DNA from: Deltaproteobacteria bacterium
Lineage (GTDB): Bacteria > Myxococcota_A > UBA9160 > UBA4427
Direction of reading: 5' to 3'
Length of the DNA stretch: 64,000 nt
Assembly: GCA_029261855.1 (NCBI GenBank)
Contig: JAJDAN010000089.1
Coordinates: 248,001 to 312,000 of the forward strand
In this document: one piece after another, positions 2,061-47,068 of the stretch
How positions within the stretch are numbered: the first letter of the stretch is position 1
How the letters are laid out: the number at the start of each line of letters is the position of its first letter
The notes under the pieces: generated by a model
What the model was told of the DNA's origin: nothing
The model's database searches: none
Seen by the model: only the letters and a program-made list of their open reading frames with translations
Made by a program: the position numbers and the translations under genes

Positions 2061-2063
2061 GGG

Positions 2064-4201: not shown

Positions 4202-4211
4202 GTCCCGGCCC

Positions 4212-4910: not shown

Positions 4911-4929
4911 TCCGGGCCGCGCGCCCTGT

Positions 4930-4956
4930 GTGCAGGTGCCTTGCGTTTACCTGCAC
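4930..4956. promoter_or_regulatory. dyad upstream of norCBQD, candidate operator
   Basis: A perfect 8-bp inverted repeat, GTGCAGGT (4930-4937) and ACCTGCAC (4949-4956) with an 11-nt spacer, lies 20-29 nt upstream of the norC start codons. A weaker second dyad (CTTGC at 4940-4944, GCAAG at 4966-4970) overlaps it. The layout suits a dimeric regulator. It is neither an FNR/DNR box (TTGAT-N4-ATCAA) nor the AAGA...TCTT type seen near nsrR, so the regulator is unknown. The rest of 4911-5099 shows no gene. Confidence 0.45.
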
Positions 4957-5099
4957 GGGGGCACTGCAAGTACGAAGCCAGCGCGGAAGCGGAGGAGAAC
5001 AGCTGTAGACAGGCGTGGAGGCCCGCCATACTGCCCCAGCAGCAGACGAGCGGGGCGGAATGGAACGGACCGATCTGGGACGTGGCGAAATGCCCCGAT

Positions 5100-7241: not shown

Positions 7242-8357
7242 ATGACGAATCACCAGGGCCCGATCCCCTGCTTCCAGCTCTACGGCACCGAGCGCTCCTA
7301 CTTCTCTGCCAAGACGCGCGTCAACCTGCGGGCCAAACGCCTGTACTTCGAAGAGAGTCCCACCAGCGGAGAGGTGTATGCGGACATCCGCAAGCGCACG
7401 GGGCTCATCTTCATCCCGGTGGTGATCACGCCGGAAGACGAGACCTGGCAGGACACGAGCGACATCTTCGACGCCCTCGAGACGCGCTTTCCGGAACCGG
7501 CGTTGCTGCCGCCCACGCCGGTCCAGCGCATCGTCGCCTATCTCTTCGAGCTCTACGCGGATGAGTTCATGGTCCTGCCCGCGATGCACTATCGCTGGAC
7601 CGAACCCGCATGGGAACAGGACGCACGCGGCGCCTTTGCGGCGGTCACGGGAGACCGGAGCACCGCCGACCGCTTCGCCGACCGCATGAGCGGGATGCTC
7701 CCGCCCCTCGGAGTGAGTCCGGCATCCATCCCGGGCATCACGGCGCACTTCCACGAGCTTCTCGCGGCACTCGACGCGCTGTTCGCAGAGCAGTCCTTCC
7801 TGCTCGGCGACCAGCTATCACTTGCCGACTGCGCACTGATGGGACCGATGTACGCCCATCTCTATCTCGACCTCGGGCCCGGCCAGCTGCTGCGGGAATC
7901 GGCTCCCCATGTCGGCCGCTGGATCGAGCGCTGCAATCACCCCGCGCCCCAGCGCTTCACCGGCTTCGTCGCCGACGACGCACTGCACCCCAGAATGCGT
8001 GCAGTCCTCGAGCTGATCGGCGGCGACGCGGTGCCGCTCCTGCTCGCCGGGCTGCAGGCGTTCGAGCGCTGGGCGGACGAACGTCCCGCCGACCTCGTCG
8101 AGCCGCCGCGCGCCCTCGGCATGCACGACTGCACGCTGCGTGGCCGGGGCTTCGAGCGCTACACGAGCAGCTATCTCCCGTGGCTCGCCCAACGGACGCT
8201 CGACGCCTACGGGGCGCTCGACTCACTGGAGAGCGGCGGACGCGACCGGGTAGACGCCGCGTTGTCAGGAACGGGCTGCGAGGCCCTGTTTGCCCACCGG
8301 CCGCGCCACCGGCTGGGAAAGCGCGACTTCAAGCTCGTCTTCGAGACGAGCGCCTGA
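7242..8357 (+). CDS. glutathione S-transferase-like protein
   Basis: A 371-residue soluble protein. Residues 12-90 look like a thioredoxin-fold GST N-terminal domain (FQLYGTERSYFSAKTR, FIPVVITP, then SDIFDALE as the glutathione-binding loop). Residues 100-235 look like the all-helical GST C-terminal domain (QSFLLGDQLSLADCALMGPMY). About 130 further residues are not part of a standard GST and have no clear motif. Substrate and partner are unknown; GST families with such tails are common in environmental proteobacteria. The stop is 6 nt from the converging hemerythrin-type gene. Confidence 0.75.
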   Translation: MTNHQGPIPCFQLYGTERSYFSAKTRVNLRAKRLYFEESPTSGEVYADIRKRTGLIFIPVVITPEDETWQDTSDIFDALETRFPEPALLPPTPVQRIVAYLFELYADEFMVLPAMHYRWTEPAWEQDARGAFAAVTGDRSTADRFADRMSGMLPPLGVSPASIPGITAHFHELLAALDALFAEQSFLLGDQLSLADCALMGPMYAHLYLDLGPGQLLRESAPHVGRWIERCNHPAPQRFTGFVADDALHPRMRAVLELIGGDAVPLLLAGLQAFERWADERPADLVEPPRALGMHDCTLRGRGFERYTSSYLPWLAQRTLDAYGALDSLESGGRDRVDAALSGTGCEALFAHRPRHRLGKRDFKLVFETSA

Positions 8358-8363
8358 ACGAAG

Positions 8364-8786
8364 TCAGCTCGGGTTCGGTACGGCTCGCAGCAGCGTGGAC
8401 TCTTCGTGCGTCATGTCCGCCCGGATGTCCTCGCAGAAGCTGCGCAGCTCGCGCGCGATCAGGGTCGTGGGGCGATTCTCCTGCTCGAGACGACCGACCA
8501 GGAAATAGAGAAGCTCGCGCTGTTCGCAATGTTCGCGGGCCAGGCGGTCGGCGAGATCGGGGCCGCGCGTGGGGATCGCGTGCAGGATCGGACTGAGCTG
8601 CGCATCCTCGAAGCTGAGATGGGCGGCGAAGACTTCGCAGAAGGCGGTGCCGTGCTCGCGCAGCTCTTCTCCCACCTCTGTTCCACCCTTCTCGAAGCGA
8701 TCGGCGAGGGTTTCGATCTCGGCCAGCCGTTCGCGCAATCGGCCGTGGTCGTTCACGATGCGGTCCCGAACTTCCGTCTGATCCAT
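8364..8786 (-). CDS. hemerythrin-like HHE-domain protein
   Basis: A 140-residue four-helix protein with the His/Glu pattern of hemerythrin HHE domains: NDHGRLRERL in helix 1, AAHLSFEDAQL in helix 2, REHCEQRE in helix 3 and MTHEES in helix 4. It probably binds a di-iron centre and may sense or bind O2 or NO. Its presence a few kb from nitric oxide genes is suggestive only. The frame extends to 8837, but the ATG at 8786 has GGAGG 5 nt upstream and places the first ligand helix right at the N terminus, so I use it. Confidence 0.75.
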   Translation of the reverse strand: MDQTEVRDRIVNDHGRLRERLAEIETLADRFEKGGTEVGEELREHGTAFCEVFAAHLSFEDAQLSPILHAIPTRGPDLADRLAREHCEQRELLYFLVGRLEQENRPTTLIARELRSFCEDIRADMTHEESTLLRAVPNPS

Positions 8787-8942
8787 CGCAGCCTCCGGTG
8801 TCGCCAGAATGGGTTCCAGGCCATTCCATCGTCGCACCTCGGCCCAGGCTTGATGGGGGCGGCTCCTCGCTAGCTCGCGGTCATGGACGGGACGTCGGAA
8901 CGAACGAGGTAAGCTCCTGACTGCACCCCCTCGGAGTACCGA

Positions 8943-10025
8943 TTGGTCCCTTCACGTCGCCGCACCGCGCTGCTCTCGCTGCTTGCGAGCTTCCTGCTGG
9001 GTTTCGTGTCCCTTCCTGCCTCAGCCGAGGGGCCACCGGTGCTCGTCGCCGAGGCGAGACGGGTCTCCTTTCCCCTTTCGGTCGAGGCGCTCGGCACGGC
9101 GCGCGCGAACGAGTCCATCGATGTACGGCCCCAGGTGTCGGAGGTCATCACCAGGATCCACTTCGAGGAAGGCCAGCGCGTCGAGGCGGGTCAGGTGCTC
9201 GTCGACCTCGAGAACCGTGAAGCGCTCGCGGACGTCGCGGCAGGTCGCGCGAACCTCATCGACTTCGAGAACCAGCTGCGCCGCAGCCGAGAGCTGTTCG
9301 ACACCCGGGCGGTGGCCGCGTCCGAGGTAGACCAGCGCAAGGCGCAACGAGACGCCGCGCGTGCGGCGCTGGATGCCGCCGAGTCGCGCCTGTCGGAAAC
9401 TCGCGTGCGCGCACCGTTCGCCGGCCGGGTGGGGCTGCGCCGGGTGAGCCTCGGCAGTCTCGTCACTCCATCCACTGTGATCACCACCCTCGACGACACG
9501 GACACCATCAAGCTGGACTTCGACGTGCCCGAAACGGCGCTCTCGCGTCTCGAGGTGGGCCTGGACGTGAGCGCGCGCAGCGCGGCCTGGCGCGAGCAGG
9601 TCTTCGTCGGGCGCGTGGCGTCGATCGATACCCGGGTCGATCCGGTCAGTCGCAGCATCACCGTGCGCGCGCTCGTCCCCAACCCGGACGGTCTTCTGCG
9701 GCCCGGGATGTTCCTGACCGTAGCCGTCGTGCGGCAGGATGTGACGTCGCTGCTGGTGCCCGAGCAGTCTCTCGTCCCCGACCAGAGCCGACAGTTCGTC
9801 TACGTGGTGGCGGAGGACGGGCTCGTCGAGAAGCGGGAGATCCGGACCGGTCGCCGGCGACCCGGTGAGGTCGAGATCCTGACGGGACTCGAAGAAGGGG
9901 AACGTGTCGTCGCCGAGGGCACCCAGAAGGCCCGGCCGGGTTCGAAGGTGAACGTGGTTGGCGAGATCCCGGGGTCGTCGCAGGCGGCGGCTCCGGTCCC
10001 GGTCGCCCCGGCGACCGCGCCGTGA
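8943..10025 (+). CDS. RND efflux periplasmic adaptor (membrane fusion protein)
   Basis: A 360-residue adaptor that links an inner-membrane RND pump to an outer-membrane channel. A signal peptide is clear (basic start, hydrophobic core, SLPASA cleavage near residue 30). Barrel-sandwich halves flank a helical hairpin (about residues 95-150), followed by beta-barrel and membrane-proximal domains ending in GLEEGERVVAEG. The start is TTG with CGGAG about 6 nt upstream; no ATG precedes the signal peptide. The stop overlaps the permease start by 4 bp (GTGA). No outer-membrane factor gene is adjacent, so the pump probably borrows a TolC-type partner. Confidence 0.9.
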   Translation: MVPSRRRTALLSLLASFLLGFVSLPASAEGPPVLVAEARRVSFPLSVEALGTARANESIDVRPQVSEVITRIHFEEGQRVEAGQVLVDLENREALADVAAGRANLIDFENQLRRSRELFDTRAVAASEVDQRKAQRDAARAALDAAESRLSETRVRAPFAGRVGLRRVSLGSLVTPSTVITTLDDTDTIKLDFDVPETALSRLEVGLDVSARSAAWREQVFVGRVASIDTRVDPVSRSITVRALVPNPDGLLRPGMFLTVAVVRQDVTSLLVPEQSLVPDQSRQFVYVVAEDGLVEKREIRTGRRRPGEVEILTGLEEGERVVAEGTQKARPGSKVNVVGEIPGSSQAAAPVPVAPATAP

Positions 10026-13000
10026 TCCTGTCCGACTTCTCGGTGCGGCGACCCGTCTTCGCGACGGTGCTCTCGCTACTGCTCACTGTCCTGGGGCTCG
10101 CGGCCCTCTACGGCCTTCCGGTTCGCCAGTACCCGGACATCGACCCGCCCGTCGTTTCGATCTCGACCTCCTACCGCGGTGCGTCCGCCGACGTGATCGA
10201 GACGAAGATCACGCAAGTGATCGAGGACCGGATCTCCGGGCTCGAGGGGATCGAGAAGCTCACGTCCTCGAGCAGCGAAGAACGCTCGAACATTCGCGTC
10301 GAATTCGGACTCGACCGGGACGTGGACGACGCTGCGAACGACATCCGCGACCGCGTCGCCCGGGCCGCGGCCGAGCTGCCCGCCGAAGCCGATCCGCCCG
10401 AGATCGCGAAGGTCGACGACGACACACGCGCGGTGATGTACCTGAACCTCACCTCGGACCGCATGTCCAGTCTCGAGATCACCGACTACGCGGACCGCTT
10501 CCTGACCGACCGCTTCTCGACGGTGCCGGGGGTCGCGCGGGTTCGGATTTCGGGGGAGCGTCGCTACGCGATGCGGATCTGGCTGGACCGTGAGAACCTT
10601 GCTGCCCGCGGGCTCACCGTCGGGGACGTCGAGGCGGCACTGCGGTCCGAGAATGTCGAGCTTCCGGCCGGCCGCCTCGAGTCCACCGAACGGGAGTACA
10701 CGCTGCGGACCGACACGGGGTTCCGCGCCCCGGCCGAATTCGGACGCCTCGTGGTGGGGCGGGGCTCGGAAGGCCAGATGATCCACCTCGCCGAAGTCGC
10801 AGAGGTTCGCGTGGGCGCCGAGGACGACCGCAACCTCGCCCGCGCGAACGGCGTCCCCGCCGTGTCGCTCGGTATCGAGCAGCTCTCCAAAGCCAACACA
10901 CTGGACGTGTCTCGCGGCGTGCGGGATGAGATCACACGAGTCCAGGAAGCGCTCCCGGAAGGAATGACCCTCGAGGTCAACTACGACCGCGCGGACTTCA
11001 TCGGCGCCTCGATGCTGCAGGTCGTCTATGCCCTGGGCTTCGCCATCGTGCTCGTCCTGCTCGTCATCTATCTCTTCCTGGGAGACGTGCGCGCGACCCT
11101 GATCCCTGCTGTCGTCGTGCCGGTCTCGGTCATCGCGACCTTCGTCGTGATGGCGGCCTTCGACTACACGATCAATACCCTGACCCTGTTGGCCCTGGTG
11201 CTCGCCATCGGACTGGTGGTGGACGACGCCATCGTCGTCCTCGAGAACATCTACCGCCGCATCGAAGACGGACGTCCACCGCTACTCGCGGCACTCGAAG
11301 GTTCCAAGGAGATCGGCTTCGCAGTCATCGCGACGACTCTCGTGCTGGTCGCGGTGTTCGTCCCTCTTTCCTTCATCCAGGGTGACATCGGGCGGCTCTT
11401 CAACGAGTTTGGGATCACGCTGGCGACGGCGGTGATCTTCTCGAGCCTCGTCGCCCTGACCTTGTCCCCCATGATGGCTTCGAAGCTGCTTCGCCGGCAC
11501 CGCCAGGAAGGCGAGAGCAGCGAGACCGGCGCCGTGCGACGGGCCGGGCTCGCGACCCGGGTCGACGCCGCCTTCCAGCAGCTGACCCGGGGCTACCGCC
11601 AGGCGCTCGGGCCCGTGGTCGAACATCCGGGCTTCACGCTGGCACTCGCGGGTGGGGTGTCGGGCCTGGCCGTGGTGCTCTTTTCCGTGCTGCCCTCCGA
11701 ATATGCGCCCGAGGAGGATCGCGGCGTCTTCGCCGCCATGATCCGCGCGCCGGAAGGTGCGAGCCTCGAGTACACAGATCGCTATGCGCGCGAGGTCGAA
11801 GCGATCCTGGCCTCCGAGGTCGAGGACGGGCCGCTGATGCGCTTCCTGCTGCGTCTGCCCGGCAGCTTCGGGAGCGGCGGCGAGGTGAACTCCGCGCGGT
11901 TCATCGTGTTGCTCGATCCCTGGGACGAGCGTGACGAGAGCGCGCAGTCCCTGGCCAAGCGCCTGCGCGGGCGACTCGCCGAGCTGCCCGGGGTCCGCGG
12001 GATGGTCTTCCCTTCCCAGAGCCTGGGGATTCGCAGCGACGGCCGACCCGTCAAGCTCGTGATCGGCGGGCCCGACTACACACAGCTCGTCGCCTGGCGT
12101 GACGAGTTGTTGGCGGCCATCGAGGAGATGCCCGAGCTGAACAATCCCGACAGCAACTACCAGGAACGCAAGCCACGCATGACGGTGCGGGTGGACCGCG
12201 ATCGGGCATCGGCTCTCGGGGTCACGTTGGCGGACATCGGCCGCACCCTCGAGACGATGCTCGGGTCTCGCGTCGTGACGACCTACGAGGACCGGGGCCG
12301 CGAGTACGACGTCATCCTGCAGGGCCAGGCCAGCGACCGCAGCAGCCCGGACGACCTGACGAATCTGTACGTCCGGTCGGCGCAGACGGGCCTCTTGATT
12401 CCGCTGTCGAATCTCGTGACGCTGAGCGAGGAGGCGGGCCCCGAGCTCCTCAGCCGCTTCGACCGCATGCGCGCCATCACCGTGGAGGCCGCCCTGGCCG
12501 ACGGCGTGAGTCTGGGTGAGGCCGTCAGCGCCCTCGGCAAGAAGGCACAGGAGGTGCTGCCCAGCAGCGCGCGCGTGGGCTGGGACGGCGAATCGCGCGA
12601 GCTCCTCGCGTCCGGCGGCAGCCTCTACGCAACCTTCGGCCTGGCCCTGGTCATCGTCTTCCTCGTGCTCGCCGCGCAGTTCGAGAGCTTCACGCTGCCG
12701 GTGGTGATCCTGGTGACCGTGCCCCTCGCACTGACCGGAGCGCTCTTCGGTCTGTGGATCCTCGGTGGCAGCATCAACGTCTTCTCGCAGATCGGCGCGG
12801 TGCTGCTGATCGGGCTGGCCGCGAAGAACGGTGTCCTGATCGTCGAGTTCACGAACCAGCTGCGCGACCGGGGAAGCGACTTCCGGGACGCGGTCGTCGA
12901 TGGCGCCTGCATCCGTCTGCGTCCCATCGTGATGACGAGCGCCTCGACCACCTTCGGCGCTCTGCCGCTACTGCTGGCGTCCGGCCCCGGAGCCGAGACC

Positions 13001-13201
13001 CGGCAGCCGATCGGGATCGTCGTCGTCTTCGGCGTGGTGGTGTCCGCAGTTCTCACCCTCTTCGTCGTCCCCGCGCTGTACTCCCTGCTGGCACGCAATA
13101 CGAAGTCGCCGGAACACGTCGCCCGCGCCATTGCGACACTGCGGGGCGCAGAGGCCAGCCGGCCCGCTCCCGGGACCCCGGGGGTCGCCCCGAACGGCTA
13201 G
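10022..13201 (+). CDS. RND-family multidrug efflux permease (AcrB/MexF type)
   Basis: A 1059-residue proton-driven inner-membrane pump of the hydrophobe/amphiphile efflux family. Twelve membrane helices and two large periplasmic loops are visible. The helix-4 proton relay Asp pair is present (LAIGLVVDDAIVVLENIYR), and the second repeat has LIGLAAKNGVLIVEF. The GTG start overlaps the adaptor stop, so the two are co-translated. Length is typical. The drug or lipid substrate cannot be read from sequence, and no dedicated regulator is adjacent. A 149-bp gap with a palindrome separates it from the next gene. Confidence 0.95.
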   Translation: MILSDFSVRRPVFATVLSLLLTVLGLAALYGLPVRQYPDIDPPVVSISTSYRGASADVIETKITQVIEDRISGLEGIEKLTSSSSEERSNIRVEFGLDRDVDDAANDIRDRVARAAAELPAEADPPEIAKVDDDTRAVMYLNLTSDRMSSLEITDYADRFLTDRFSTVPGVARVRISGERRYAMRIWLDRENLAARGLTVGDVEAALRSENVELPAGRLESTEREYTLRTDTGFRAPAEFGRLVVGRGSEGQMIHLAEVAEVRVGAEDDRNLARANGVPAVSLGIEQLSKANTLDVSRGVRDEITRVQEALPEGMTLEVNYDRADFIGASMLQVVYALGFAIVLVLLVIYLFLGDVRATLIPAVVVPVSVIATFVVMAAFDYTINTLTLLALVLAIGLVVDDAIVVLENIYRRIEDGRPPLLAALEGSKEIGFAVIATTLVLVAVFVPLSFIQGDIGRLFNEFGITLATAVIFSSLVALTLSPMMASKLLRRHRQEGESSETGAVRRAGLATRVDAAFQQLTRGYRQALGPVVEHPGFTLALAGGVSGLAVVLFSVLPSEYAPEEDRGVFAAMIRAPEGASLEYTDRYAREVEAILASEVEDGPLMRFLLRLPGSFGSGGEVNSARFIVLLDPWDERDESAQSLAKRLRGRLAELPGVRGMVFPSQSLGIRSDGRPVKLVIGGPDYTQLVAWRDELLAAIEEMPELNNPDSNYQERKPRMTVRVDRDRASALGVTLADIGRTLETMLGSRVVTTYEDRGREYDVILQGQASDRSSPDDLTNLYVRSAQTGLLIPLSNLVTLSEEAGPELLSRFDRMRAITVEAALADGVSLGEAVSALGKKAQEVLPSSARVGWDGESRELLASGGSLYATFGLALVIVFLVLAAQFESFTLPVVILVTVPLALTGALFGLWILGGSINVFSQIGAVLLIGLAAKNGVLIVEFTNQLRDRGSDFRDAVVDGACIRLRPIVMTSASTTFGALPLLLASGPGAETRQPIGIVVVFGVVVSAVLTLFVVPALYSLLARNTKSPEHVARAIATLRGAEASRPAPGTPGVAPNG

Positions 13202-13222
13202 AATTGCACTTGCAGTGCAATT
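13202..13222. promoter_or_regulatory. perfect palindrome upstream of the Baeyer-Villiger monooxygenase
   Basis: AATTGCACT (13202-13210), a TGC centre and AGTGCAATT (13214-13222) form a perfect 9-bp inverted repeat. Both arms are AT-rich in an otherwise GC-rich gap, which looks more like a TetR-family operator than a terminator; no T-tract follows. It lies 128 nt upstream of the monooxygenase, whose operon encodes a TetR regulator, so autoregulation through this site is plausible. It starts directly after the RND permease stop codon. Confidence 0.55.
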
Positions 13223-13350
13223 GATCGGGGCGCTAGGGTACCAACCCGAGCCCGGAGCCCTGCAGGAGACCCTGTGGCGTGTTCCCGTTGCACCCCGGAT
13301 GAAGCCGAACGCCCGCGACCGGCGGCGCCGAGACGGAGGAAACGACTGAC

Positions 13351-15168
13351 ATGGCAACCGATCAGCCCGACGCGACCCAGGACCCGACGCCCTTCGATGC
13401 GGACGCCCTGCGCGCGAAGTACCGAGCGGAACGGGACAAGCGCCTCCGCGACGACGGCAACGAGCAGTACGTCGAGGTCAAGGGTCGCTTCGCCCACTAT
13501 CTCGACGACCCGTACGCCGAGCCCGGATTTTCCCGCGAGCCGCTGACGGACGAGGTCGAGGTGGTGGTCGTAGGCGGCGGCTTCGGGGGCCTGCTGGCAG
13601 GCGCGCGCCTGCGCCAGGCCGGCGTCGAGGACATCCGCATGATCGATCCGGCGGGCGACTTCGGCGGCACCTGGTACTGGAACCGCTACCCGGGCATCGC
13701 CTGCGACATCGAGTCGTACACCTACCTGCCGCTACTCGAAGAGCTCGGCTACATGCCCAAGGAGAAGTATTCCTTCGGCCCCGAGATCTTGTCCCACAGC
13801 CAGGCGATCGCGAAGAAGTTCGACCTGTATCGCGACGTCTGCTTCCAGACCCGCGTCGAAGAGCTGCGCTGGGACGACGACGACGCGCGCTGGATCATCA
13901 CGACCAACCGGGGCGACCGCATGAGGGCCCACTACGTGTGCCTCGCCACCGGTCCCCTCAATCGCCCCAAGCTGCCCGGAATCCCCGGCATCGAAGAATT
14001 CGAGGGACATTCCTTCCACGCCAGCCGCTGGGACTACGACTACACGGGCGGCGCCGCCGACGACCCGCGCCTGACGGGCCTCGCCGGCAAGCGGGTGGGC
14101 ATCATCGGTACCGGTGCAACCTCGGTGCAGTGTGTGCCTCACGTCGGTGAATGGGCCGAGCGGCTGCATGTCTTCCAGCGCACTCCGTCCTCGATCGACG
14201 TGAAGCACAACCCGCAAACGGACCCGGATTGGGCGTCCCAGCAGGGTCCCGGTTGGCACCAGGCCCGCATGGACAACTTTAACATGCTCGTGTCCGGCAT
14301 CCCCCAGCCCGAAGACCTGGTCAACGACGGCTGGACGGACCTCATCGCCAAGCTCATCGTCGGAATGACGTCCGGCCGCAACAAGGACATGTCACCCGAA
14401 GGCATCGCACAAGCCGTCGAACTCGCGGACTTCGAGAAGATGGAGGAGATCCGCGCCCGGGTAGAGGCAGTCGTCGAGGACCCCGACACCGCCGAATCCC
14501 TCAAGCCCTTCTACCGACAGTTCTGCAAGCGCCCCTGCTTCCACAACGAGTACCTCGACACCTTCAACCGACCCAACGTCGAACTCGTAGACACCAAGGG
14601 CAAGGGCGTCGAGCAGATCACCAAGAAGGGCGCCGTGGTCGACGGTGTGGAGTACGAGCTCGACTGCCTGATCTACGCCAGCGGCTTCGAGGTCGGGACC
14701 GACTATTCCCGTCGCGCCGGCTTCCAGCTGTACGGGCGCGAGGGCGAGAGTCTGAGCGACCGCTGGGACGGAGGCGTGCGAACGCTCCACGGCATGCACG
14801 TCCACGGCTTCCCGAACTGCTTCATCATGAGCAACCCCCAGGCAGGCTTCACCGCCAACTATCCCCATCTTCTCAACGAGCAGGCAAAGCACGTCGCCTA
14901 CATCATCCGCAAGGGGATCGACGACGGGATCGAAGCCGTCGAGGTCTCGACCGAAGGCGAGCAGGCCTGGATCGATCAGTGCATCGGCAAGGCCCGCAAC
15001 GCCGGCGACTTCTTCGAGAACTGCACGCCGGGCTACTACAACAACGAAGGAAAGACCGGCGAGCGCAGTGCCCAGGACGGCTTCTACGGCGGCGGGTCCA
15101 TCGAGTTCTTCCAGATCCTCGAGGCCTGGCGCAAGGCAGACGACCTCGACGGGATGGAGCGACGCTAG
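13351..15168 (+). CDS. Baeyer-Villiger flavin monooxygenase
   Basis: A 605-residue FAD/NADPH monooxygenase that inserts oxygen next to a ketone to give an ester or lactone. The FAD Rossmann motif is GGGFGG (75-80). The NADPH motif is GTGATS (253-258). The BVMO fingerprint FEGHSFHASRWD (217-228) matches F-x-G-x3-H-x3-W. FGGTWYWNRYPG and CDIESYTYLP are typical of the type I cyclohexanone/steroid monooxygenase group. About 60 N-terminal residues precede the first Rossmann fold, as in the longer BVMOs. A TetR regulator starts 4 nt after the stop. A ketone from fatty or steroid degradation is a reasonable substrate guess. Confidence 0.93.
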   Translation: MATDQPDATQDPTPFDADALRAKYRAERDKRLRDDGNEQYVEVKGRFAHYLDDPYAEPGFSREPLTDEVEVVVVGGGFGGLLAGARLRQAGVEDIRMIDPAGDFGGTWYWNRYPGIACDIESYTYLPLLEELGYMPKEKYSFGPEILSHSQAIAKKFDLYRDVCFQTRVEELRWDDDDARWIITTNRGDRMRAHYVCLATGPLNRPKLPGIPGIEEFEGHSFHASRWDYDYTGGAADDPRLTGLAGKRVGIIGTGATSVQCVPHVGEWAERLHVFQRTPSSIDVKHNPQTDPDWASQQGPGWHQARMDNFNMLVSGIPQPEDLVNDGWTDLIAKLIVGMTSGRNKDMSPEGIAQAVELADFEKMEEIRARVEAVVEDPDTAESLKPFYRQFCKRPCFHNEYLDTFNRPNVELVDTKGKGVEQITKKGAVVDGVEYELDCLIYASGFEVGTDYSRRAGFQLYGREGESLSDRWDGGVRTLHGMHVHGFPNCFIMSNPQAGFTANYPHLLNEQAKHVAYIIRKGIDDGIEAVEVSTEGEQAWIDQCIGKARNAGDFFENCTPGYYNNEGKTGERSAQDGFYGGGSIEFFQILEAWRKADDLDGMERR

Positions 15169-18808: not shown

Positions 18809-19852
18809 TCACACCGTGTCGAAGGCGTACAGAGTCGTCTGCCGGTAGGTCTCGCCCGGCCGGAGCACCACCGAAGGGAACGCCGGCTGGTGGACCGCGT
18901 CCGGAAAGAGCTGGGTCTCGAGGCAGAGCCCCGCGTGCCGGCCGTAGAGGGAAGCGCGCTTGCCGGGCACGCGGTCGAGGAAATTCCCGCTGTAGAGCTG
19001 CACCCCGGGCTCGCTCGTGGACAGCGTCATCCGCCGCCCCGACACGGGATCGAGCAGCACGCCGGCGCGCGCGGGCTGCAACCGACGCGCATCGGCGAGC
19101 ACGAAGTTGTGGTCGTAGCCGGGCACGAGCGCCTGGATGTCCCGCCCCACGGGCTTTCGCGTCGTGAAGTCGAAGGGCGTCCCGGCGACGGGCAACACGC
19201 GACCGCTGGGCAGGAGATCGGCGCCCACCTCGCAGTAGCGGTCGGCATCCAGCTGCAGCTCGTGAGCGAGGATGTCTCCACTTCCCGCCAGGTTCCAGTA
19301 GCTGTGGTTCGTGAGATTCACGGGCGTCGCCGCGTCGCTCGTCGCCTCGTACTCGATACGCAGCGCGTCGTCGTGACCGAGCACCACGCTCACGCCGACG
19401 CGGACGGTCCCGGGATAGCCCTCGTCACCCGCCGGGCTCACGTGGTCGAAGCGCAGCGCGGGCCCCGCCTCGACGTCCAGCTCGCGCGCCGCCCAGAGCG
19501 CCTTGTCGAAGCCACGGATGCCCCCGTGAAGATGGTTGGCACCATCGTTCGCGGCCAGCGGATACACGACGCCGTCCAGCTCGAAGCGCGCGCCCGCGAT
19601 GCGATTGGCCACGCGTCCCACCGTGCAGCCAAAGAAGGGTTCGTTCTGCGCATAGGAGTCGAAGGTGTCGAAGCCGAGCACGACGTCTGCCAACGCGCCG
19701 GCGCGGTCCGGTATCCACAACGCGACCAGGGTCGCCCCCCAGTCGATCCAGCAGGCGCGGGACCCGCGCCGGTTCGTGAGCGTGTAGCGCGTGACTCGTT
19801 CGCCGGCGTCGGTCTTTCCGAAGGGGGCGCGTGCGACGCCTTGCGCGCTCAT
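18809..19852 (-). CDS. galM: aldose 1-epimerase (galactose mutarotase)
   Basis: A 347-residue mutarotase that interconverts alpha- and beta-anomers of galactose or glucose. Family signatures are present: GRVANRIAGARF, ANDGANHLHGG with the first catalytic His, TNHSYWNLAG with the second, and CLETQLFPDAVHQPAFPS with the catalytic Glu. No signal peptide, so cytoplasmic. It overlaps the end of galK by 4 bp (ATGA), so the two are translated together. The rest of a Leloir pathway (galT, galE) is not in the window. Confidence 0.93.
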   Translation of the reverse strand: MSAQGVARAPFGKTDAGERVTRYTLTNRRGSRACWIDWGATLVALWIPDRAGALADVVLGFDTFDSYAQNEPFFGCTVGRVANRIAGARFELDGVVYPLAANDGANHLHGGIRGFDKALWAARELDVEAGPALRFDHVSPAGDEGYPGTVRVGVSVVLGHDDALRIEYEATSDAATPVNLTNHSYWNLAGSGDILAHELQLDADRYCEVGADLLPSGRVLPVAGTPFDFTTRKPVGRDIQALVPGYDHNFVLADARRLQPARAGVLLDPVSGRRMTLSTSEPGVQLYSGNFLDRVPGKRASLYGRHAGLCLETQLFPDAVHQPAFPSVVLRPGETYRQTTLYAFDTV

Positions 19853-21018
19853 GCGGAAAGCAGGCCCGCGCCGACTGCGGATCGCACCGCGTGGATTCCG
19901 GGTACGGTCCCGGTCGCGTGCGCATAGGAGTCGGCAGTGGACGCGACGAAGTCATCCACTCGCTGGGCCTCGACGAGCGCCAACATGCAACCGCCGAAGC
20001 CCGCCCCCGCCTGGCGCCCGGAAACGACACCGGGAGCGGCGAGTATCGCTTCGAGCATGGCTTCCATGGCGGGGACGCTGATCTCGTACAGGTCCCGCGC
20101 ACCTGCGAAGGACTGCGCGCACAGGGCCCCGATGGCTCCGCGGTCGTCGGCGGCCAAGGCACGCGCGAGCCCGTGCACTCGCTCGTTCTCTTCGAGAACG
20201 AAGCGACAACGGCGCTCCACTGTCGGGTCGAGCTCACTGGCGTACTCGGCGAGCTGCGCCGATGTCACGTCGCGCAGCGCGGTCACGCCCGGGATCCGTC
20301 CCGCCAGCACGCGCACGCCGGCCTCGCAGCTCGCACGTCGCTCGCCGTACGCCGAGCCGCTGAGCTCCCGCGGCGCGCGCGTATCGCAGATCACGGGCTG
20401 CAGGTCATCCGGGATGGGTGCGTATGCGTGTGTGAGATGTCTGCAGTCGAGCAACAGCGCCGAGCCGGCTTCTCCGAGGATGGAGCTGTACTGGTCGAGG
20501 ATTCCGCACTGGACACCGACGACCTCGTTCTCGGCGCGCTGACACAGCTTCGCCGCCCGCACCGGCTCGAGCGCAAAACCCCCGAGTGAAGCGAATAGCA
20601 GGGCGGCCGCCGCCTCGAGCGAGGCGGATGAGCTGAGTCCACTCGCCAGCGGGAGCGTCCCGTGCACGAGCAGATCGCAGCCGGGGAACGCGAGCCCCTC
20701 CTGGCGGAGCACCTGCGCGACGGACTGGACGTAGATCGCCCAGCCCGAGACGCGTGTCTCCACGCCGCCGTCGATCTCGAACGCGTGACGCCCGGCGACA
20801 TTCATCGACTCCGCGCACACGCGCCCGTCCGTCCGTGGGGCGGCAGCGATCCAGCTGTCCCGATCGATCGAGAGCGTCAGCACGAAGCCCTCGTTGTAGT
20901 CCGTGTGACTCCCCATCGCGTCGACGCGGCCGGGCGCACGGACCCAATACTCCGGCTCTCGGCCGAAGCGCGTCCGAAACGCCTCGCGCATGAACGCGCG
21001 TCGCTCGTCGCTTTGCAT
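19849..21018 (-). CDS. galK: galactokinase
   Basis: A 389-residue GHMP kinase that phosphorylates galactose at C1. The substrate motif GRVDAMGSHTDYN (30-42) is near the N terminus; the usual Glu of GEHTDYN is Ser here, which could bear on sugar choice. The ATP loop LPLASGLSSSAS and the C-terminal GAGFGGCMLALVE are standard. The ATG at 21018 is chosen by homology to the family N terminus; a GTG at 21057 would add 13 residues. It forms a two-gene operon with galM. Upstream lies the repeat block described separately. Confidence 0.92.
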   Translation of the reverse strand: MQSDERRAFMREAFRTRFGREPEYWVRAPGRVDAMGSHTDYNEGFVLTLSIDRDSWIAAAPRTDGRVCAESMNVAGRHAFEIDGGVETRVSGWAIYVQSVAQVLRQEGLAFPGCDLLVHGTLPLASGLSSSASLEAAAALLFASLGGFALEPVRAAKLCQRAENEVVGVQCGILDQYSSILGEAGSALLLDCRHLTHAYAPIPDDLQPVICDTRAPRELSGSAYGERRASCEAGVRVLAGRIPGVTALRDVTSAQLAEYASELDPTVERRCRFVLEENERVHGLARALAADDRGAIGALCAQSFAGARDLYEISVPAMEAMLEAILAAPGVVSGRQAGAGFGGCMLALVEAQRVDDFVASTADSYAHATGTVPGIHAVRSAVGAGLLSA

Positions 21019-21068
21019 GCCGCGCAGTTTGGGACAGGCGAATCGACTTCGCAGCACCGTTCCCAGGA

Positions 21069-21099
21069 CTAGGAGCCTGACCCAAGACGTAGTCTTGGG
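21069..21099. repeat. intergenic repeat unit A: 20-bp motif ending in a hairpin
   Basis: Unit A (CTAGGAGCCTGACCCAAGAC at 21069-21088) runs into an 8-bp perfect hairpin: CCCAAGAC (21081-21088), loop GTA, GTCTTGGG (21092-21099). The same 20-base motif recurs at 21136 and, inverted, at 21284-21303. It lies 50 nt upstream of the galK start. Confidence 0.8.
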
Positions 21100-21135
21100 G
21101 AAACAGGCGACGACGCAAAGGTCGTCGGACCGCAG

Positions 21136-21303
21136 CTAGGAGCCTGACCCAAGACTCCCGCGGGCAGTACTGGCGTCGAGGCGCGCCGCCGCCAAGGCGC
21201 GCGAGGAGGCCGTACTTCTTGCTACGGCGACGCAGCGCAACGCCGGCGGCGGCGATGCATCGGCGTCAGGACGTCGCGAGCGAGTCTTGGGTCAGGCTCC
21301 TAG
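21136..21303. repeat. 168-bp element with perfect 22-bp terminal inverted repeats
   Basis: The ends 21136-21157 and 21282-21303 are exact reverse complements over 22 bp (starting CTAGGAGCCTGACCC). The 124-bp interior is GC-rich with several short repeats and no convincing reading frame. Size and structure resemble a non-autonomous REP/MITE-like element. No target-site duplication is obvious. The whole stretch 21019-21370 between galK and nnrS holds only this element, its flanking units and a 7-bp hairpin (GCGAAGC 21307-21313, GCTTCGC 21318-21324). Confidence 0.65.
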
Positions 21304-21343
21304 CTGGCGAAGCGTAGGCTTCGCTTGCGACGGAAGCCGAGAT

Positions 21344-21374
21344 CCCAAGACGGAGTCTTGGGTCGGCCTCCTAC
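21344..21374. repeat. intergenic repeat unit D: inverted hairpin copy at the end of nnrS
   Basis: CCCAAGAC (21344-21351), loop GGA and GTCTTGGG (21355-21362) form the same 8-bp hairpin as unit A, followed by TCGGCCTCCTAC, a degenerate inverted copy of the TAGGAGCC arm. It runs into the nnrS stop codon, so for nnrS on the minus strand it could act as a terminator hairpin, though without a T-tract. Confidence 0.65.
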
Positions 21375-22615
21375 CCGGGCAGACCGTCCGGTCGGGGCTC
21401 GCTCAGGATGCGCCAGTAGCGAGCAGCGAAGAGCGCGAAGCCGGCTGCCCAGAGTCCTGCACCCAGCATCAGCGCTACGGGCTGAACAGGAAACGACAGG
21501 AACGGCGAGACGACTCGCAAGAGCGCGCCGCCGTGCACGAGCGCGAAGCACCACACGACCGCGGTGGGCAGGACGAGCGGTCGGCCCGTGTGACCGAGCC
21601 CGACCCGGGTGATGACCGCCAGGATCGTGGCGCCCATCCCGCCCGCGGTCAGCGCGTGCAGTCCCGCACTGGCGGGGATCGGGGCGCCGAGATCTCCGAA
21701 CCCCGTCAGCAGCAATCCCACGACGATCCAGCCCGATCCGGCGTGCAGGGACCACAGCAGCGGGTCCTTGCCCGTGTGGATCGTCCGCCAACCCGCCAGG
21801 CGAACGACGCCGGCGAGGCCCGCCCCAGCGGCCAGCACGCCGGTCCATGGCGTGCGCGGTGCGAACAGGTCCGCGAGCACCAACGCCGCAGCGAGAGAGA
21901 TGACCCCGACGTCGACGGCGACCCAGGAGCGGACCTTCCAGGGCAGGCCGTCGCGCCGGAAGGCGTTCTCGGTGAACGCCGGCGTGATACGGCCGCCGAT
22001 CACGAGGATCAGCACGACGATCGCGTCGACGGCGAGACGCAGGGCCGGCGGCGCCGTCGCGGTCGTGATCCCGAGGGCCTCGGCGTGCATGCCAGCGTTG
22101 GCGGCAGCCAGGACGATGACGATGCCGAGCACCGCGTAGTTGCGAATCTGTCCGGACCCCCAGAGCGTGCGCAAGACGGCGAGAGCGACTGCCGGCAAGA
22201 ACGCCAGGTCCACCACCGCAACGAGCCACGACGGCAGGATGCCGACACACGCGAATGCCACCCGTCCCGCCACCCACAGCGACACGAGCGCCGCCAGCCA
22301 GCGACCCGTGAGCGCGGGGCCACCGGTCCAGACCGGAGAGGCCGTCAGCAGGAAGCCCGCGATGGCGGCGGCGACGAAGCCGAAGACCATCTCGTGACCG
22401 TGCCACCCGGTCGGCTGCAGCCAGACCGGAATGCCGAAGACACCCTGCCAGGCGGCCGCCCAGAACGGCACGGCTAGCGCCGCATACACCGCAAGGCACA
22501 GGAAGAAAGGACGGAAGGCACGCCCCCAGAGCCCGCGTGGTGTCCGGCCCGGAACCGCTTTCGGACGGATCTCGAGCACGGGGGCGGTGGGTTCAGGCGT
22601 CATCGGGACGGGCAT
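21371..22615 (-). CDS. nnrS: NnrS family haem-copper membrane protein
   Basis: A polytopic membrane protein (about 414 residues, some 12 helices) of the NnrS family, which contains haem and copper and relieves nitrosative stress in denitrifiers and pathogens. The first helices (RAFRPFFLCLAVYAALAVPFW, then GWHGHEMVFGFVAAAIAGFLL) carry the family His pair, and RVGLGHTGRPL in the C-terminal half is another signature. The start is uncertain: ATG 22615 or 22603, both inside the end of the sirohaem reductase gene, which argues for translational coupling. No strong ribosome site is seen for either. It is the last gene of the nsrR cluster. Confidence 0.9.
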   Translation of the reverse strand: MPVPMTPEPTAPVLEIRPKAVPGRTPRGLWGRAFRPFFLCLAVYAALAVPFWAAAWQGVFGIPVWLQPTGWHGHEMVFGFVAAAIAGFLLTASPVWTGGPALTGRWLAALVSLWVAGRVAFACVGILPSWLVAVVDLAFLPAVALAVLRTLWGSGQIRNYAVLGIVIVLAAANAGMHAEALGITTATAPPALRLAVDAIVVLILVIGGRITPAFTENAFRRDGLPWKVRSWVAVDVGVISLAAALVLADLFAPRTPWTGVLAAGAGLAGVVRLAGWRTIHTGKDPLLWSLHAGSGWIVVGLLLTGFGDLGAPIPASAGLHALTAGGMGATILAVITRVGLGHTGRPLVLPTAVVWCFALVHGGALLRVVSPFLSFPVQPVALMLGAGLWAAGFALFAARYWRILSEPRPDGLPG

Positions 22616-24371
22616 CCGAGGGTAGCCCGCTCGCTTCCGCCTTGGCTCCGGTGAGGATGTCTCGACGGAGCGCGCGCCGAAGACAGCGGTCATAGAAGTC
22701 GCCCAGCCCCTCTTTGGGCAGCCGCCGACGCTGCCAATCGTCCAGCAGTGGCTCGAGCCGCGCGACGAGCCGTTCCAGGGGCACGCTCTCGGCGTAGAGC
22801 TCGGCGAGACGTGCACCCTGCAGGCCTCCGCCGAGATACACGTCGTAGTGCCCCGCCTTGCGGCCGACGAGCGCCAGGTCCGCGCTGTACGGTCGCGTGC
22901 AACCGTTCGGGCACCCGGTCATCCGCAAGGTCAGCGGTACGTCGTCGAGTCCCCGCGCCGCAAACGCCCGCTCGAAGCTGTCGACGACTTCGCCGGCGAC
23001 TCGCTCCGACTCGGCCAGGGCCAGGCCACAGGTGGGGAGTGCGGGGCAAGCAAGTGCGTGTCGGCGCACGAAGCTGAGTCGGTCCGGTCTGGGAATGCGA
23101 TAGGCATCGAGAATCTGCTCGACCTTCGGCAGGTCTTCCTCCGACAGATCGGCGAGGAGCAGATTCTGCTGCGCGGTGAATGCGACACGGGGCCTCAGCG
23201 TCGTGACCAGCGTACGCAGCGCGCTCTTCCAACGTCGCCGCCCATCGTCGAGGATGCGGCCGTTCTCCACGTAGACCCCGTACAACCAGCGGCCATCTCC
23301 CTGCGGATGACAGCCGAGCCAGTCGCGGTGTTCCAGCGGACCGGTCTCCACCCATTCTTCCAGGGGGAAGGAGGCGCGGCTCTCGAACTCACGCCGAAAG
23401 GCTTCGATCCCCCACTCCTCGACGACATACTTCAGTCGCGAGTGACGGCGGTCCGTACGGTCGCCGTAGTCGCGGAACATGCCCGCGACCACCTTCACCG
23501 TCTCGACGAGGTACGGGCGGGCGACGAAGCCCAGGGGAGACGCCAGGCGCGCGTAGGTCTCCGGCCGACGATGCGTGAGGCCCGCACCCCCGCCCACGAG
23601 CACGTTCGCACCCGTCAACTCGCCGGCTTCGACCACCCCGATCAGCCCGACGTCCTGCGCATGGACGTCGACGGAGTTGTCCTCGGGAAGCGCCAGACCC
23701 GTCTTGAACTTGCGCGGGAGGTAGGCATCGCCGTAGAGAGGCTCTTCCTCGCCTGCGAGATCGGACGGCGTGTCACCCAGCCAGATCTCGCGGTAGGCCC
23801 CGGTCGCAGGCGCCAGCGCCTGGGCCAGGTCCGAAGCCAACGCCTGGAGCGCGCGATGCCCCGTGTCTCGAATCGGCGCGGGAGGAGCAACGACGTTGCG
23901 CTCGACATCGCCGCATCCGCCCAGCGTCGTGAGACCCACCTCGTTGATCCGGCGGATCGCTCGGGCGAGATCCGCCTTGCGAACTCCATGCAACTGCACG
24001 TCCTGCCGTGTCGTGACGCGGAACCCTCGGTTGTAGACCACGTCCTCGGCGAGTTCGTCGAGGGCGAGGTACTGATCGGCCGTGAGTTGGCCCGCGGGTA
24101 CGGCGACACGCACCATGAAGTTCGGCTCGCGGGCCGTTCCGGTGACTCTCGCCAGGGCGCGCCCGTCGCGATCCTCCTGCTGATAGATGCCGTGGAACTT
24201 TGCGACCCGCTGATCGAGATGGTCGAGACCCGGCGCCGAATCCAGCAGCGCCGCGGTCAGGCCCCCGCGGAGATGTCGGCTGTCGCCCTTGGTGCGCTCG
24301 ACGTCCGTAGGCTTGGACTTGCGGGCGAGGGCGCGCGGCCCGACGGAACTACCTGCTTTCGCTGCACCCAT
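22593..24371 (-). CDS. cysI: sulfite-reductase-type sirohaem/[4Fe-4S] hemoprotein
   Basis: A 592-residue sirohaem enzyme of the sulfite/nitrite reductase superfamily carrying out a six-electron reduction. KGDSRHLRG near the N terminus, FHGIYQQEDRD and the cluster motifs CPALPTC (C-x5-C) with CPNGC (C-x3-C) are all present, the pattern of assimilatory sulfite reductase. Two ferredoxin-like half domains flank the centre. ATG 24371 has GAGG 8 nt upstream and avoids a low-complexity extension. The gene overlaps nnrS by about 11-23 bp and follows the ABM gene by 70 nt. This context makes a role in nitrosative stress, or nitrite reduction, worth considering beside sulfur assimilation. Confidence 0.9.
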   Translation of the reverse strand: MGAAKAGSSVGPRALARKSKPTDVERTKGDSRHLRGGLTAALLDSAPGLDHLDQRVAKFHGIYQQEDRDGRALARVTGTAREPNFMVRVAVPAGQLTADQYLALDELAEDVVYNRGFRVTTRQDVQLHGVRKADLARAIRRINEVGLTTLGGCGDVERNVVAPPAPIRDTGHRALQALASDLAQALAPATGAYREIWLGDTPSDLAGEEEPLYGDAYLPRKFKTGLALPEDNSVDVHAQDVGLIGVVEAGELTGANVLVGGGAGLTHRRPETYARLASPLGFVARPYLVETVKVVAGMFRDYGDRTDRRHSRLKYVVEEWGIEAFRREFESRASFPLEEWVETGPLEHRDWLGCHPQGDGRWLYGVYVENGRILDDGRRRWKSALRTLVTTLRPRVAFTAQQNLLLADLSEEDLPKVEQILDAYRIPRPDRLSFVRRHALACPALPTCGLALAESERVAGEVVDSFERAFAARGLDDVPLTLRMTGCPNGCTRPYSADLALVGRKAGHYDVYLGGGLQGARLAELYAESVPLERLVARLEPLLDDWQRRRLPKEGLGDFYDRCLRRALRRDILTGAKAEASGLPSDARPDDA

Positions 24372-24441
24372 GGAAAGAGCCTCGCTTCCTGGCCCGCGCC
24401 AGTGTGATCGAACAGAACTACCGACGCCGCGTCCTGGGACC

Positions 24442-24879
24442 TCAGCCGGTGGCTGCCGGCAACACGCTTTCGCACTTCGCACACTGCGCCGGGCGTCGCT
24501 CGTCCCAACCCGGCTGCTCCTGCGTCCATCGCCCGCAGTCGGGACACTTGCGGGCGCGGGCGTGGTCGATCGTGAGCCGGTAGTCGCCGAAGCAACCCTC
24601 GACACACCACTTGCGGAAGCCGGGCATCAGGACGCGACGATGGAAGTCGTTCTCGACCCATCGGGTGACGGCCGCTCGCTCGCTCCAGAGCGTCGAGAAT
24701 TGATAGCGGCGCCCCGGTCGGGTCCAGAGGACGGCCTGCAAGCAGCCCTCTGTCGCCCTCGTCTCTTCCATCGTCTGGTCCAGATGGGGCAGAAACGCGG
24801 CTTCGCCCTCTTCGGTGAAGACGAACTCGGCCAGAACCAGCAGCGGCGCGTCGGCCTCCGGGACTTCGGGATCGGACAT
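24442..24879 (-). CDS. ABM-domain protein with C-terminal zinc ribbon
   Basis: A 145-residue protein. Residues 12-100 fit the dimeric ferredoxin-like antibiotic biosynthesis monooxygenase (ABM) fold: LLVLAEFVFTEEGEAAFLPHL, TEGCLQAVLW, then FSTLWSERAAVTRWV. Residues 111-137 carry two CxxC knuckles (CPDC and CAKC) that should bind zinc or iron. I do not know a characterised protein of this make-up. It lies between nsrR and the sirohaem reductase on the same strand. The ATG at 24879 has GGAGG about 9 nt upstream, and an NsrR-like dyad sits just above it, so nitric oxide control is likely. Confidence 0.75.
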   Translation of the reverse strand: MSDPEVPEADAPLLVLAEFVFTEEGEAAFLPHLDQTMEETRATEGCLQAVLWTRPGRRYQFSTLWSERAAVTRWVENDFHRRVLMPGFRKWCVEGCFGDYRLTIDHARARKCPDCGRWTQEQPGWDERRPAQCAKCESVLPAATG

Positions 24880-24907
24880 CGCGTCAGGCCTCCGGCATTC
24901 TTCTGTA

Positions 24908-24930
24908 AAGAACTATTACGTATGAATCTT
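24908..24930. promoter_or_regulatory. candidate NsrR operator upstream of the ABM/zinc-ribbon gene
   Basis: Two 11-nt arms with one central base: AAGAACTATTA (24908-24918), C, GTATGAATCTT (24920-24930; reverse complement AAGATTCATAC). The 11-1-11 layout and the AAGAT-CAT core match the known NsrR half-site AAGATGCATTT approximately. It lies 29 nt upstream of the ATG, in an AT-rich patch of this GC-rich genome. The stretch 24880-24979 holds no gene. Confidence 0.55.
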
Positions 24931-24979
24931 TTGAGATTACCGGACGACGAGGACACCGCAAGGTCGCTGCGGTCTCCCG

Positions 24980-25417
24980 TCAGGAGACGTCGAGCAGACG
25001 ATCCAGGGGTCTTCGCCGCCGTGCGACGAGGTCCTCGAGGGTGTGTCGATCGAGGCTGGCGAGAAATGCGTCGAGCGCCTCCTCGAGAACACCGCGAAGC
25101 CCACAAGCGGGAGCGATGCGGCATTCGTTGGTTTGGGGATCGAAGCACTCGACGAGATTCATCTCGCCCTCGCAGTACCTCACGACCTCGCCAACGGCGA
25201 TCTCGCCGGGCTCACGTGCGAGTTGAAAGCCGCCGCCACGCCCCCGAACGGTCTCGAGAAAGCCGCCGCGTCCCAGCTGATGGACCACCTTCATCAGGTG
25301 CGCGCGGGAAACGCCATAGGCGCTGGCGATCTCTTCGATGGTGGCGAGCGCGTCCGGGCGAACGGCGAGATAGATCAGGACGCGCAGGCTGAGATCGCTG
25401 TAGCGGGTGAGCTGCAT
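24980..25417 (-). CDS. nsrR: NsrR-type nitric oxide-sensing Rrf2 repressor
   Basis: A 145-residue Rrf2-family regulator. The winged helix covers residues 1-70 (MQLTRYSDLSLRVLIYLA, ASAYGVSRAHLMKVVHQL, then the wing VRGRGGGFQLA). Three cysteines, Cys91, Cys99 and Cys105, lie in LVECFDP...ECRIAPACGL, closely matching the cluster loop of NsrR (LVNC...C-ITPAC) rather than IscR. NO reacts with the iron-sulfur cluster and releases DNA. A GGAGGAGG ribosome site precedes the ATG. It heads the cluster leading to nnrS and has its own NsrR-like dyad upstream, so autoregulation is expected. Confidence 0.9.
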   Translation of the reverse strand: MQLTRYSDLSLRVLIYLAVRPDALATIEEIASAYGVSRAHLMKVVHQLGRGGFLETVRGRGGGFQLAREPGEIAVGEVVRYCEGEMNLVECFDPQTNECRIAPACGLRGVLEEALDAFLASLDRHTLEDLVARRRRPLDRLLDVS

Positions 25418-25440: not shown

Positions 25441-25463
25441 AAGATATACCCCAGATCCGTCTT
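25441..25463. promoter_or_regulatory. candidate NsrR operator upstream of nsrR
   Basis: Arms AAGATATACCC (25441-25451) and AGATCCGTCTT (25453-25463; reverse complement AAGACGGATCT) surround one central base, again the 11-1-11 NsrR layout with AAGA outer ends. It sits 24 nt upstream of the nsrR start, adjacent to the ribosome-site hairpin. The inner bases agree less well with consensus than the outer ones. Confidence 0.5.
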
Positions 25464-25561: not shown

Positions 25562-26314
25562 TCAGCGACCCGTCCACTTGGGCTCGCGCTTCTCCGCGAA
25601 GGCGCGCGGGCCTTCCTTGGCGTCCTGACTCGTGAAGACCTTGCCGAGCAGGGGACCCTGCATCGCCCAGGCGTCTTCTTCCGTCATGCCGCGCGACTGG
25701 CGGATGACCTGCTTGCTCGCCGCCACCGCCAGCGGTGCGTTCTTCGCGATGCGCTCGGCCAGCTCGAGGGCGACTTCCGCTGCCTTGCCGGGCTCGGCCA
25801 GGCGCGTCACGAGACCGATCTCGTATCCCGTCTCTGCGCTGATCGGGTCCGAGGTCAGCGCCATCTCCATGGCGACGCCGTACGGGATCCGATTCGGGAG
25901 CCGGAAGAGACCGCCTCCTGCCGCGAACAGCCCCTTGTTGACCTCGGGGATGCCGAGCCTCACGCCCTTCGCCGCGACGATGAGGTCGCAGCTCAGCGCA
26001 ATCTCGAGACCACCGGCCAGGGCGAAGCCCTCGACCGCCGCGATCAGCGGCTTCTGGCTTCCCTTCTGCAGGAAGTCGTTGAAGCCCTTGGGCGGACCCT
26101 CGGTCGCAAACGCCTTGAGGTCCATGCCCGCGCTGAAGCCGCCGTCGGCACCCGTCAGGACGCCGGCCGTGAGGCCGTCATCCGAATCGAGCTCTTCGAT
26201 CGCGGCCACCAGTGCCTGACCGAGCGCGCTATTGACCGAGTTCTTCGCCTCGGGCCGGTTCAAGGTAATGACACGGACGCGTCCGTGGGTTTCCGTCAGG
26301 ATTTCATTGGCCAT
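25562..26314 (-). CDS. enoyl-CoA hydratase (crotonase family)
   Basis: A 250-residue crotonase-fold protein, normal length for a hydratase that adds water across a 2-enoyl-CoA. The oxyanion-hole segments are GGFSAGMDLKAF and the VEGFALAGGLEIALSCD turn, followed by FGIPEVNKGLFAAGGG-type sequence (here LGIPEVNKGLFAAGGG), which places a Glu near the active site. Start ATG at 26314 has GGAGC upstream. It is the third gene of a thiolase-SDR-hydratase operon, 42 nt after the SDR stop. Confidence 0.9.
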   Translation of the reverse strand: MANEILTETHGRVRVITLNRPEAKNSVNSALGQALVAAIEELDSDDGLTAGVLTGADGGFSAGMDLKAFATEGPPKGFNDFLQKGSQKPLIAAVEGFALAGGLEIALSCDLIVAAKGVRLGIPEVNKGLFAAGGGLFRLPNRIPYGVAMEMALTSDPISAETGYEIGLVTRLAEPGKAAEVALELAERIAKNAPLAVAASKQVIRQSRGMTEEDAWAMQGPLLGKVFTSQDAKEGPRAFAEKREPKWTGR

Positions 26315-46759: not shown

Positions 46760-47068
46760 GTGTACATCGCCATGAACCGGTTCCAGATCGCGCTCGGAAG
46801 CGAGGAGACCTTCGAGGATCTCTGGCGCGCCCGCGAGTCCCACCTCGGCGACGTGCCGGGATTTCGCGAGTTCCAACTACTGAGAGGACCGGCGGCAGAG
46901 GATCACACCCTCTACGCGTCCCATACCGTGTGGGAATCCGAGGCGGCGTTCCGCACCTGGACCGAATCCGAGTCGTTCGTGAAGGCTCACGCACAGGCGC
47001 GCGCACCCAAGGGCACATACCTGGGTCACCCCCACTTCGAGGGCTTCGAAGTCATTCTCTCCGAGTAG
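46760..47068 (+). CDS. ABM-fold haem-degrading monooxygenase-like protein (IsdG/HmoA type)
   Basis: A 102-residue ferredoxin-like protein. The YIAMNRFQIALGSEETFEDLW start, VPGFREFQLLRG, and the YASHTVWESEAAFRTWTESE segment match IsdG/HmoA-type monooxygenases; Asn6 and a Trp in WESEAAFRTW sit where haem contacts are in that family. It might release iron from haem or act on another aromatic. GTG at 46760 is chosen because the conserved N terminus begins there, with GGAGG upstream at slightly long spacing. It precedes the GH3 gene by 6 nt. Confidence 0.82.
   Translation: MYIAMNRFQIALGSEETFEDLWRARESHLGDVPGFREFQLLRGPAAEDHTLYASHTVWESEAAFRTWTESESFVKAHAQARAPKGTYLGHPHFEGFEVILSE

Follow-up and report, generated by a model that had tools for sequence, protein, structure and literature searches.

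We analysed a 64,000-nucleotide stretch of DNA (hereafter the window) from a deltaproteobacterial genome (assembly GCA_029261855.1, contig JAJDAN010000089.1), focusing on a four-gene cluster in which a sirohaem reductase of the sulfur-assimilation type lies among genes associated with nitric oxide (NO) stress. All four genes are found on the minus strand and, from head to tail, they are nsrR, a gene for an ABM/zinc-ribbon protein, cysI and nnrS. The first (24980-25417; 145 amino acids; Pfam Rrf2, 129.6 bits) encodes a predicted NO-sensing repressor of the Rrf2 family, and the second (24442-24879; 145 amino acids) contains an ABM domain (Pfam ABM, 30.1 bits). The cysI gene (22593-24371; 592 amino acids) encodes a sirohaem/4Fe-4S reductase (Pfam NIR_SIR, 151.4 bits; NIR_SIR_ferr, 86.4 bits). 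Its start codon is most likely the ATG at 24371, as the longest frame (670 amino acids, from 24605) is too long and enters the ABM gene. The nnrS gene (21371-22615; 414 amino acids) encodes a membrane nitrosative-stress protein, the only NnrS in the genome, whose Pfam match (342.5 bits, above cut-off) spans profile positions 2-371 of 371. The cysI stop codon is located at 22593-22595, so that cysI and nnrS overlap by 23 nucleotides if nnrS begins at the ATG at 22615, or by 11 nucleotides if the second ATG (22603) is used. Coordinates and family scans thus agree with the preliminary description of this DNA, which reported these four genes in this order on one strand with the last two overlapping.

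The Rrf2 protein was examined first by family models. In NCBIfam it scores 130.8 bits against NsrR (cut-off 182) and 126.4 bits against RirA (cut-off 193), missing both cut-offs; that of the NsrR equivalog suits enterobacterial-type members. Its best relative of solved structure is Streptomyces coelicolor NsrR (5n07, E 1e-21), with which Asp8 and three cysteines are aligned. The cysteines are spaced as C-x7-C-x5-C, and Asp8 is presumably the fourth cluster ligand. Because the NCBIfam scores were unable to separate NsrR from RirA, the operators were also considered. Scoring used an E. coli-type 23-bp consensus, AAGATGYATTTNAAATRCATCTT, which is compatible with the published gATGyAT-N5-ATrCATc (PMC1274295). 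The two highest scores among all positions of the window were found upstream of nsrR (AAGACGGATCTGGGGTATATCTT, 25441-25463, 15/22 consensus positions) and upstream of the ABM-cysI-nnrS unit (AAGATTCATACGTAATAGTTCTT, 24908-24930, 16/22), the next best site reaching 13. In a shuffle control of both regions none of 500 shuffles scored as high, and none of 2000 stretches equalled the box at 24908-24930. When the 7 Mb genome was searched with a degenerate pattern for NsrR boxes, six sites were obtained, the best match being the box at 25441-25463. Four of these were discarded because all lie within called coding sequence, leaving the two window boxes as the only intergenic ones. This suggests that NsrR acts locally, as in S. 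coelicolor, where it controls three genes (PMC4432287). Since both residues and operators fit, the protein was named NsrR-like, and the predicted control of the cluster by NsrR is well supported.

Further searches placed the window CysI among sulfite reductases. It scores 618 bits against PRK13504 (cut-off 457), misses the cut-offs of TIGR02041 (478.7 of 756.6) and TIGR02042 (487.3 of 731.5), and falls far below those of the nitrite reductase models PRK09566 (157.5/594), NirA (139/523) and NirB (28.7/578 bits). Aligned with the E. coli sulfite reductase hemoprotein (E 4e-108), it retains Arg83, Arg153, Lys215 and Lys217 as Arg88, Arg158, Lys221 and Lys223, and all cluster cysteines are kept (Cys442, 448, 487 and 491). 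The Lys-Lys pair of sulfite reductases is found in the motif PRKFKT; in plant-type nitrite reductases, Asn replaces the last Lys of this set. Sirohaem sulfite reductases reduce nitrite too, and the active site, as read from these residues, favours sulfite without proving it. No cysJ flavoprotein of the NADPH type was found among the matches of a whole-genome search, which points to a ferredoxin-type electron donor.

The descent of this enzyme was examined by scanning the contigs of 84,980 species genomes with two exact peptides, a method by which distant members may be missed. This yielded 31 relatives. In a maximum-likelihood tree, CysI of the window and of the genomes G070, G072 and L102 form one clade (support 100/99), whose nearest kin come from Planctomycetota and one unplaced genome. 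All four members have nsrR nearby, placed in one of three arrangements, and an NsrR-type box was found in three. Assimilatory CysI surround the clade in the tree, and several of these adjoin cysH, cysG or cysK: in L101 and L104 the neighbour is cysH, and L126 contains the order cysH-cysG-cobA-cysI-cysK, while no neighbour of the cysH, cysG or cysK type was detected beside cysI in L103 and L105. The ordinary CysI of other members of the class is about 40% identical to the window protein. A single recruitment of an assimilatory CysI into an NsrR regulon is thus the probable history. The source genome also encodes cysH and a second sirohaem reductase of the NirA/SiR type, found on another contig (C32) near cysK with a rhodanese-like gene adjoining it; in G070 and G072 its counterpart is followed by DUF934 and cysK. 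Because the genome has cysH and this other enzyme near cysK, and lacks CysJ, the window CysI is regarded as an addition.

Gene neighbourhoods were then compared among relatives, most of which are incomplete genomes, with genes called by codon usage and start sites therefore approximate. NnrS was found in 47 of 91 genomes of the class; 40 of these neighbourhoods were read, the remaining seven genomes having been retrieved as fragments only or not at all. Among the 40, the cysI-nnrS arrangement was repeated only in G070, with an overlap of 4 nucleotides and with ABM and nsrR just upstream, an FTCD_C gene lying on the opposite strand between ABM and cysI. The two genes are therefore joined in 2 of the 47 NnrS-bearing genomes, and the majority of nnrS genes have no such cysI next to them. 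The earlier suggestion that the sirohaem enzyme is locked to NnrS needs amending, such locking being rare and the constant neighbour of this CysI being nsrR; adjacency does extend beyond the source genome. In G072, which has no NnrS match, cysI is divergent from nsrR-ABM, and in L102 cysI is followed by an overlapping nsrR. Elsewhere nsrR-ABM is accompanied by other genes: it adjoins nnrS-hemerythrin in G073, precedes nnrS in G078, and occurs in G022 and G023; in G022 the opposite strand carries genes for cupin, hemerythrin and YeiH-like proteins. NsrR-type boxes were found in six relatives (G070, G072, G073, G078, G022 and G089), located 5' of nsrR, ABM-nnrS, cysI-nnrS and nnrS-hemerythrin, and between cysI and nsrR. 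No clear box was found in L102 (best 14/22, equalled by 13 of 500 shuffles), and none was found 5' of nsrR-ABM in L091. The grouping goes beyond chance, since the nsrR-ABM pair is also found in further families of the class and other genomes repeat the linkage of cysI to nnrS or to nsrR. Based on these neighbourhoods and boxes, nsrR-ABM appears to be a core to which nnrS, hemerythrin and cysI are attached as effectors.

Several additional features were observed in the same loci. In L102 the run DUF6306-cysI-nsrR occupies 7630-13824, and less than 4 kb away lies a two-domain copper oxidase resembling nitrite reductases (181 bits, below cut-off). In L093 a gene for a YeiH-like (Cons_hypoth698) transporter (4800-6047, minus strand) adjoins hemerythrin and cupin genes and is divergent from nsrR-ABM. 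A strong NsrR-type box (16/22) is found in L091 at 9758-9780 ahead of a DUF488-AlkA fusion gene, and in L092 a DUF488 gene adjoins the ABM gene; the DUF488 gene is a possible further member of the regulon.

The ABM/zinc-ribbon protein is encoded by 9 of the 91 genomes of the class, and a search of 379 genomes from the phylum found it in no further class. Its C-terminal end was read as a zinc ribbon (CxxC-x17-CxxC), the four cysteines of which are invariant in an alignment of eight homologues; invariant residues of the ABM half include Trp52, Tyr59, Trp74, His80 and Trp91. With the profile of this protein no significant relative of solved structure was found by sequence. An AlphaFold model made from two sequences (predicted local distance difference test 71.6) matched ABM-fold proteins in Foldseek, for example Rv0793 and PA3566. 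Like these members of PF03992 it has the ferredoxin-like ABM fold in its N-terminal part, but it differs from them in its C-terminal zinc ribbon and its frequent linkage to nsrR. In the reading favoured below it is a conserved small partner of NsrR, and a redox or oxygenase accessory role would be a guess. A plain ABM-domain protein without a zinc ribbon is encoded elsewhere in the window (46760-47068, plus strand).

About 16 kb from nnrS the window contains norC-norB-norQ-norD (132-4901, minus strand), a complete operon for a cytochrome-c NO reductase (NorB against the Pseudomonas aeruginosa enzyme, E 5e-115). NO is thus met and used by the organism, which is in line with the NO-stress reading favoured below. 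Upstream of norC no convincing box of the NsrR or FNR/DNR type was found. A hemerythrin HHE-domain protein (8364-8786, minus strand) is possibly another NO or oxygen protein. The genes which flank the cluster, an enoyl-CoA hydratase (25562-26314) and a galactokinase with an aldose epimerase (18809-21057), were assigned by family scans and are unrelated to it. Directly 3' of nnrS, at 21069-21373, palindromic repeats were found with arms of 20-50 nucleotides, of which CTAGGAGCCTGACCCAAGAC occurs in three exact copies and in both orientations. No further copy of the 20-mer was found in the window with up to two mismatches, nor in the fetched loci elsewhere.

Comparison with known systems shows both likeness and difference. 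In the NsrR regulon described by Rodionov et al. (2005), nsrR and nnrS may form an operon controlled by inverted-repeat NsrR boxes (PMC1274295), as is found here; unlike that regulon, for which no sulfite reductase is mentioned, the window regulon seems small and confined to its own locus, and it additionally includes cysI and the ABM/zinc-ribbon gene. NsrR control of a sirohaem reductase is already known from Bacillus subtilis nasDEF (PMC4432287; PMC8139620). However, NasDE belongs to the NirBD type of NADH nitrite reductase, whereas the window encodes a CysI-type sulfite reductase of one subunit, which is tied to nnrS. It shares its fold, cluster cysteines and sulfite-binding residues with assimilatory CysI and ferredoxin-type sulfite reductases (PRK13504, TIGR02041, TIGR02042), but unlike them it is encoded amid NO-stress genes, with neither cysH nor cysG adjoining and no CysJ in the genome. 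As the preliminary description had supposed, no such set came up when the literature was searched for NsrR or NnrS together with sulfite reductase, cysI or sirohaem, and a link of an NsrR regulon to sulfur assimilation was not found in the papers covered.

From this, the balance tips slightly towards a nitrosative-stress operon under NsrR control that captured a second, assimilatory-type sulfite reductase for sulfide supply under NO. Its first part, an NsrR-headed unit in which a sulfur-assimilation-type sirohaem reductase is made together with NnrS, had been proposed before and is supported by the sequence. The gene order, the overlap, the boxes and the CysI clade with its linkage to nsrR are read directly from the sequence, while we infer NO induction, which is very probable, the ferredoxin donor and sulfide supply. 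Damage by NO to the Fe-S cluster of NsrR would free both boxes, as the boxes and the residues of NsrR suggest, and nsrR and ABM-cysI-nnrS would then be transcribed. NnrS would limit the loss of iron to dinitrosyl complexes, by analogy with Vibrio, where NnrS does not remove NO but shields iron from such complexes (PMC9246220; PMC5710167). The additional CysI, for which ferredoxin is the probable electron donor, would reduce sulfite to sulfide, from which cysteine, thiols and Fe-S clusters could be rebuilt under NO. That a dedicated sulfite reductase is induced by NO within an NnrS repair set, its sulfide made on demand to rebuild Fe-S clusters and thiols, is a tentative proposal with chances a little short of even. 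Several points weigh against this account. The overlap of cysI and nnrS is known from two genera only, the sirohaem and 4Fe-4S cluster of CysI are themselves targets of NO, and the ability of sulfite reductases to reduce nitrite prevents the active-site residues from settling the substrate. Moreover, the C32 enzyme gets its highest scores from NirA/nitrite reductase models without reaching their cut-offs; a sulfite role for it is suggested solely by the nearby cysK, its direct neighbour being rhodanese-like rather than DUF934.

The main rival is that CysI acts as a nitrite (or NO/hydroxylamine) reductase which, as NasDE may do, converts nitrite from NO oxidation or from outside to ammonia. Binding of NsrR to the nasD promoter is sensitive to NO in B. 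subtilis (PMC4432287; PMC8139620), and in Aspergillus fumigatus sirohaem is required for NO resistance, an effect ascribed to nitrite reductase (PMC6240589). The genome also contains no Cu-type nitrite reductase (NirK) above cut-off. Against this rival, a second enzyme resembling NirA is already present. Moreover, the Lys-Lys pair in PRKFKT, the descent of the clade from assimilatory CysI with its cysH, cysG or cysK neighbours, and the NCBIfam scores (618 bits for sulfite against 157 for nitrite reductase) all argue for sulfite, making this rival unlikely. The role put forward earlier, which was either the handling of nitrite and NO or a replacement for NO-damaged sulfite reduction, is therefore disfavoured in its first half by active site and descent, and its second half is the better one. 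Such a backup fits the presence of the second sirohaem reductase near cysK, whose substrate is likewise a matter of inference.

It is more doubtful still that the joining is loose, nsrR-ABM picking up varied effectors and cysI contributing a modest increase in sulfite reduction and nothing more specific. The partners do differ among the nine genomes with nsrR-ABM or ABM (nnrS, hemerythrin, cupin, YeiH, DUF488 and cysI), and the rarity of the cysI-nnrS overlap is in keeping with this. However, linkage to nsrR in every member of the CysI clade in three arrangements, mostly with a box, would be hard to account for in this way, and the occurrence of the cysI-nnrS overlap in two genera suggests that co-expression has been selected for. 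An iron- or sulfur-responsive Rrf2 protein (RirA-, CymR- or IscR-like), by which the unit would answer iron or cysteine limitation instead of NO, is suggested by the close NsrR and RirA scores but is very improbable, given that among solved structures NsrR comes closest and has its Asp8 and cysteine ligands matched in the alignment, that IscR and CymR match far more weakly, that the operators fit the NsrR palindrome, and that nnrS and hemerythrin carry the same boxes in relatives.

Known NsrR regulons contain genes for NO removal and Fe-S repair. A sulfite reductase under NsrR, if the proposed capture is correct, would connect sulfide supply with the defence against NO and would be an example of an assimilatory enzyme which was acquired or copied and then rewired into a stress response. 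It also makes testable the question of whether cells survive NO by producing sulfide themselves when it is needed.

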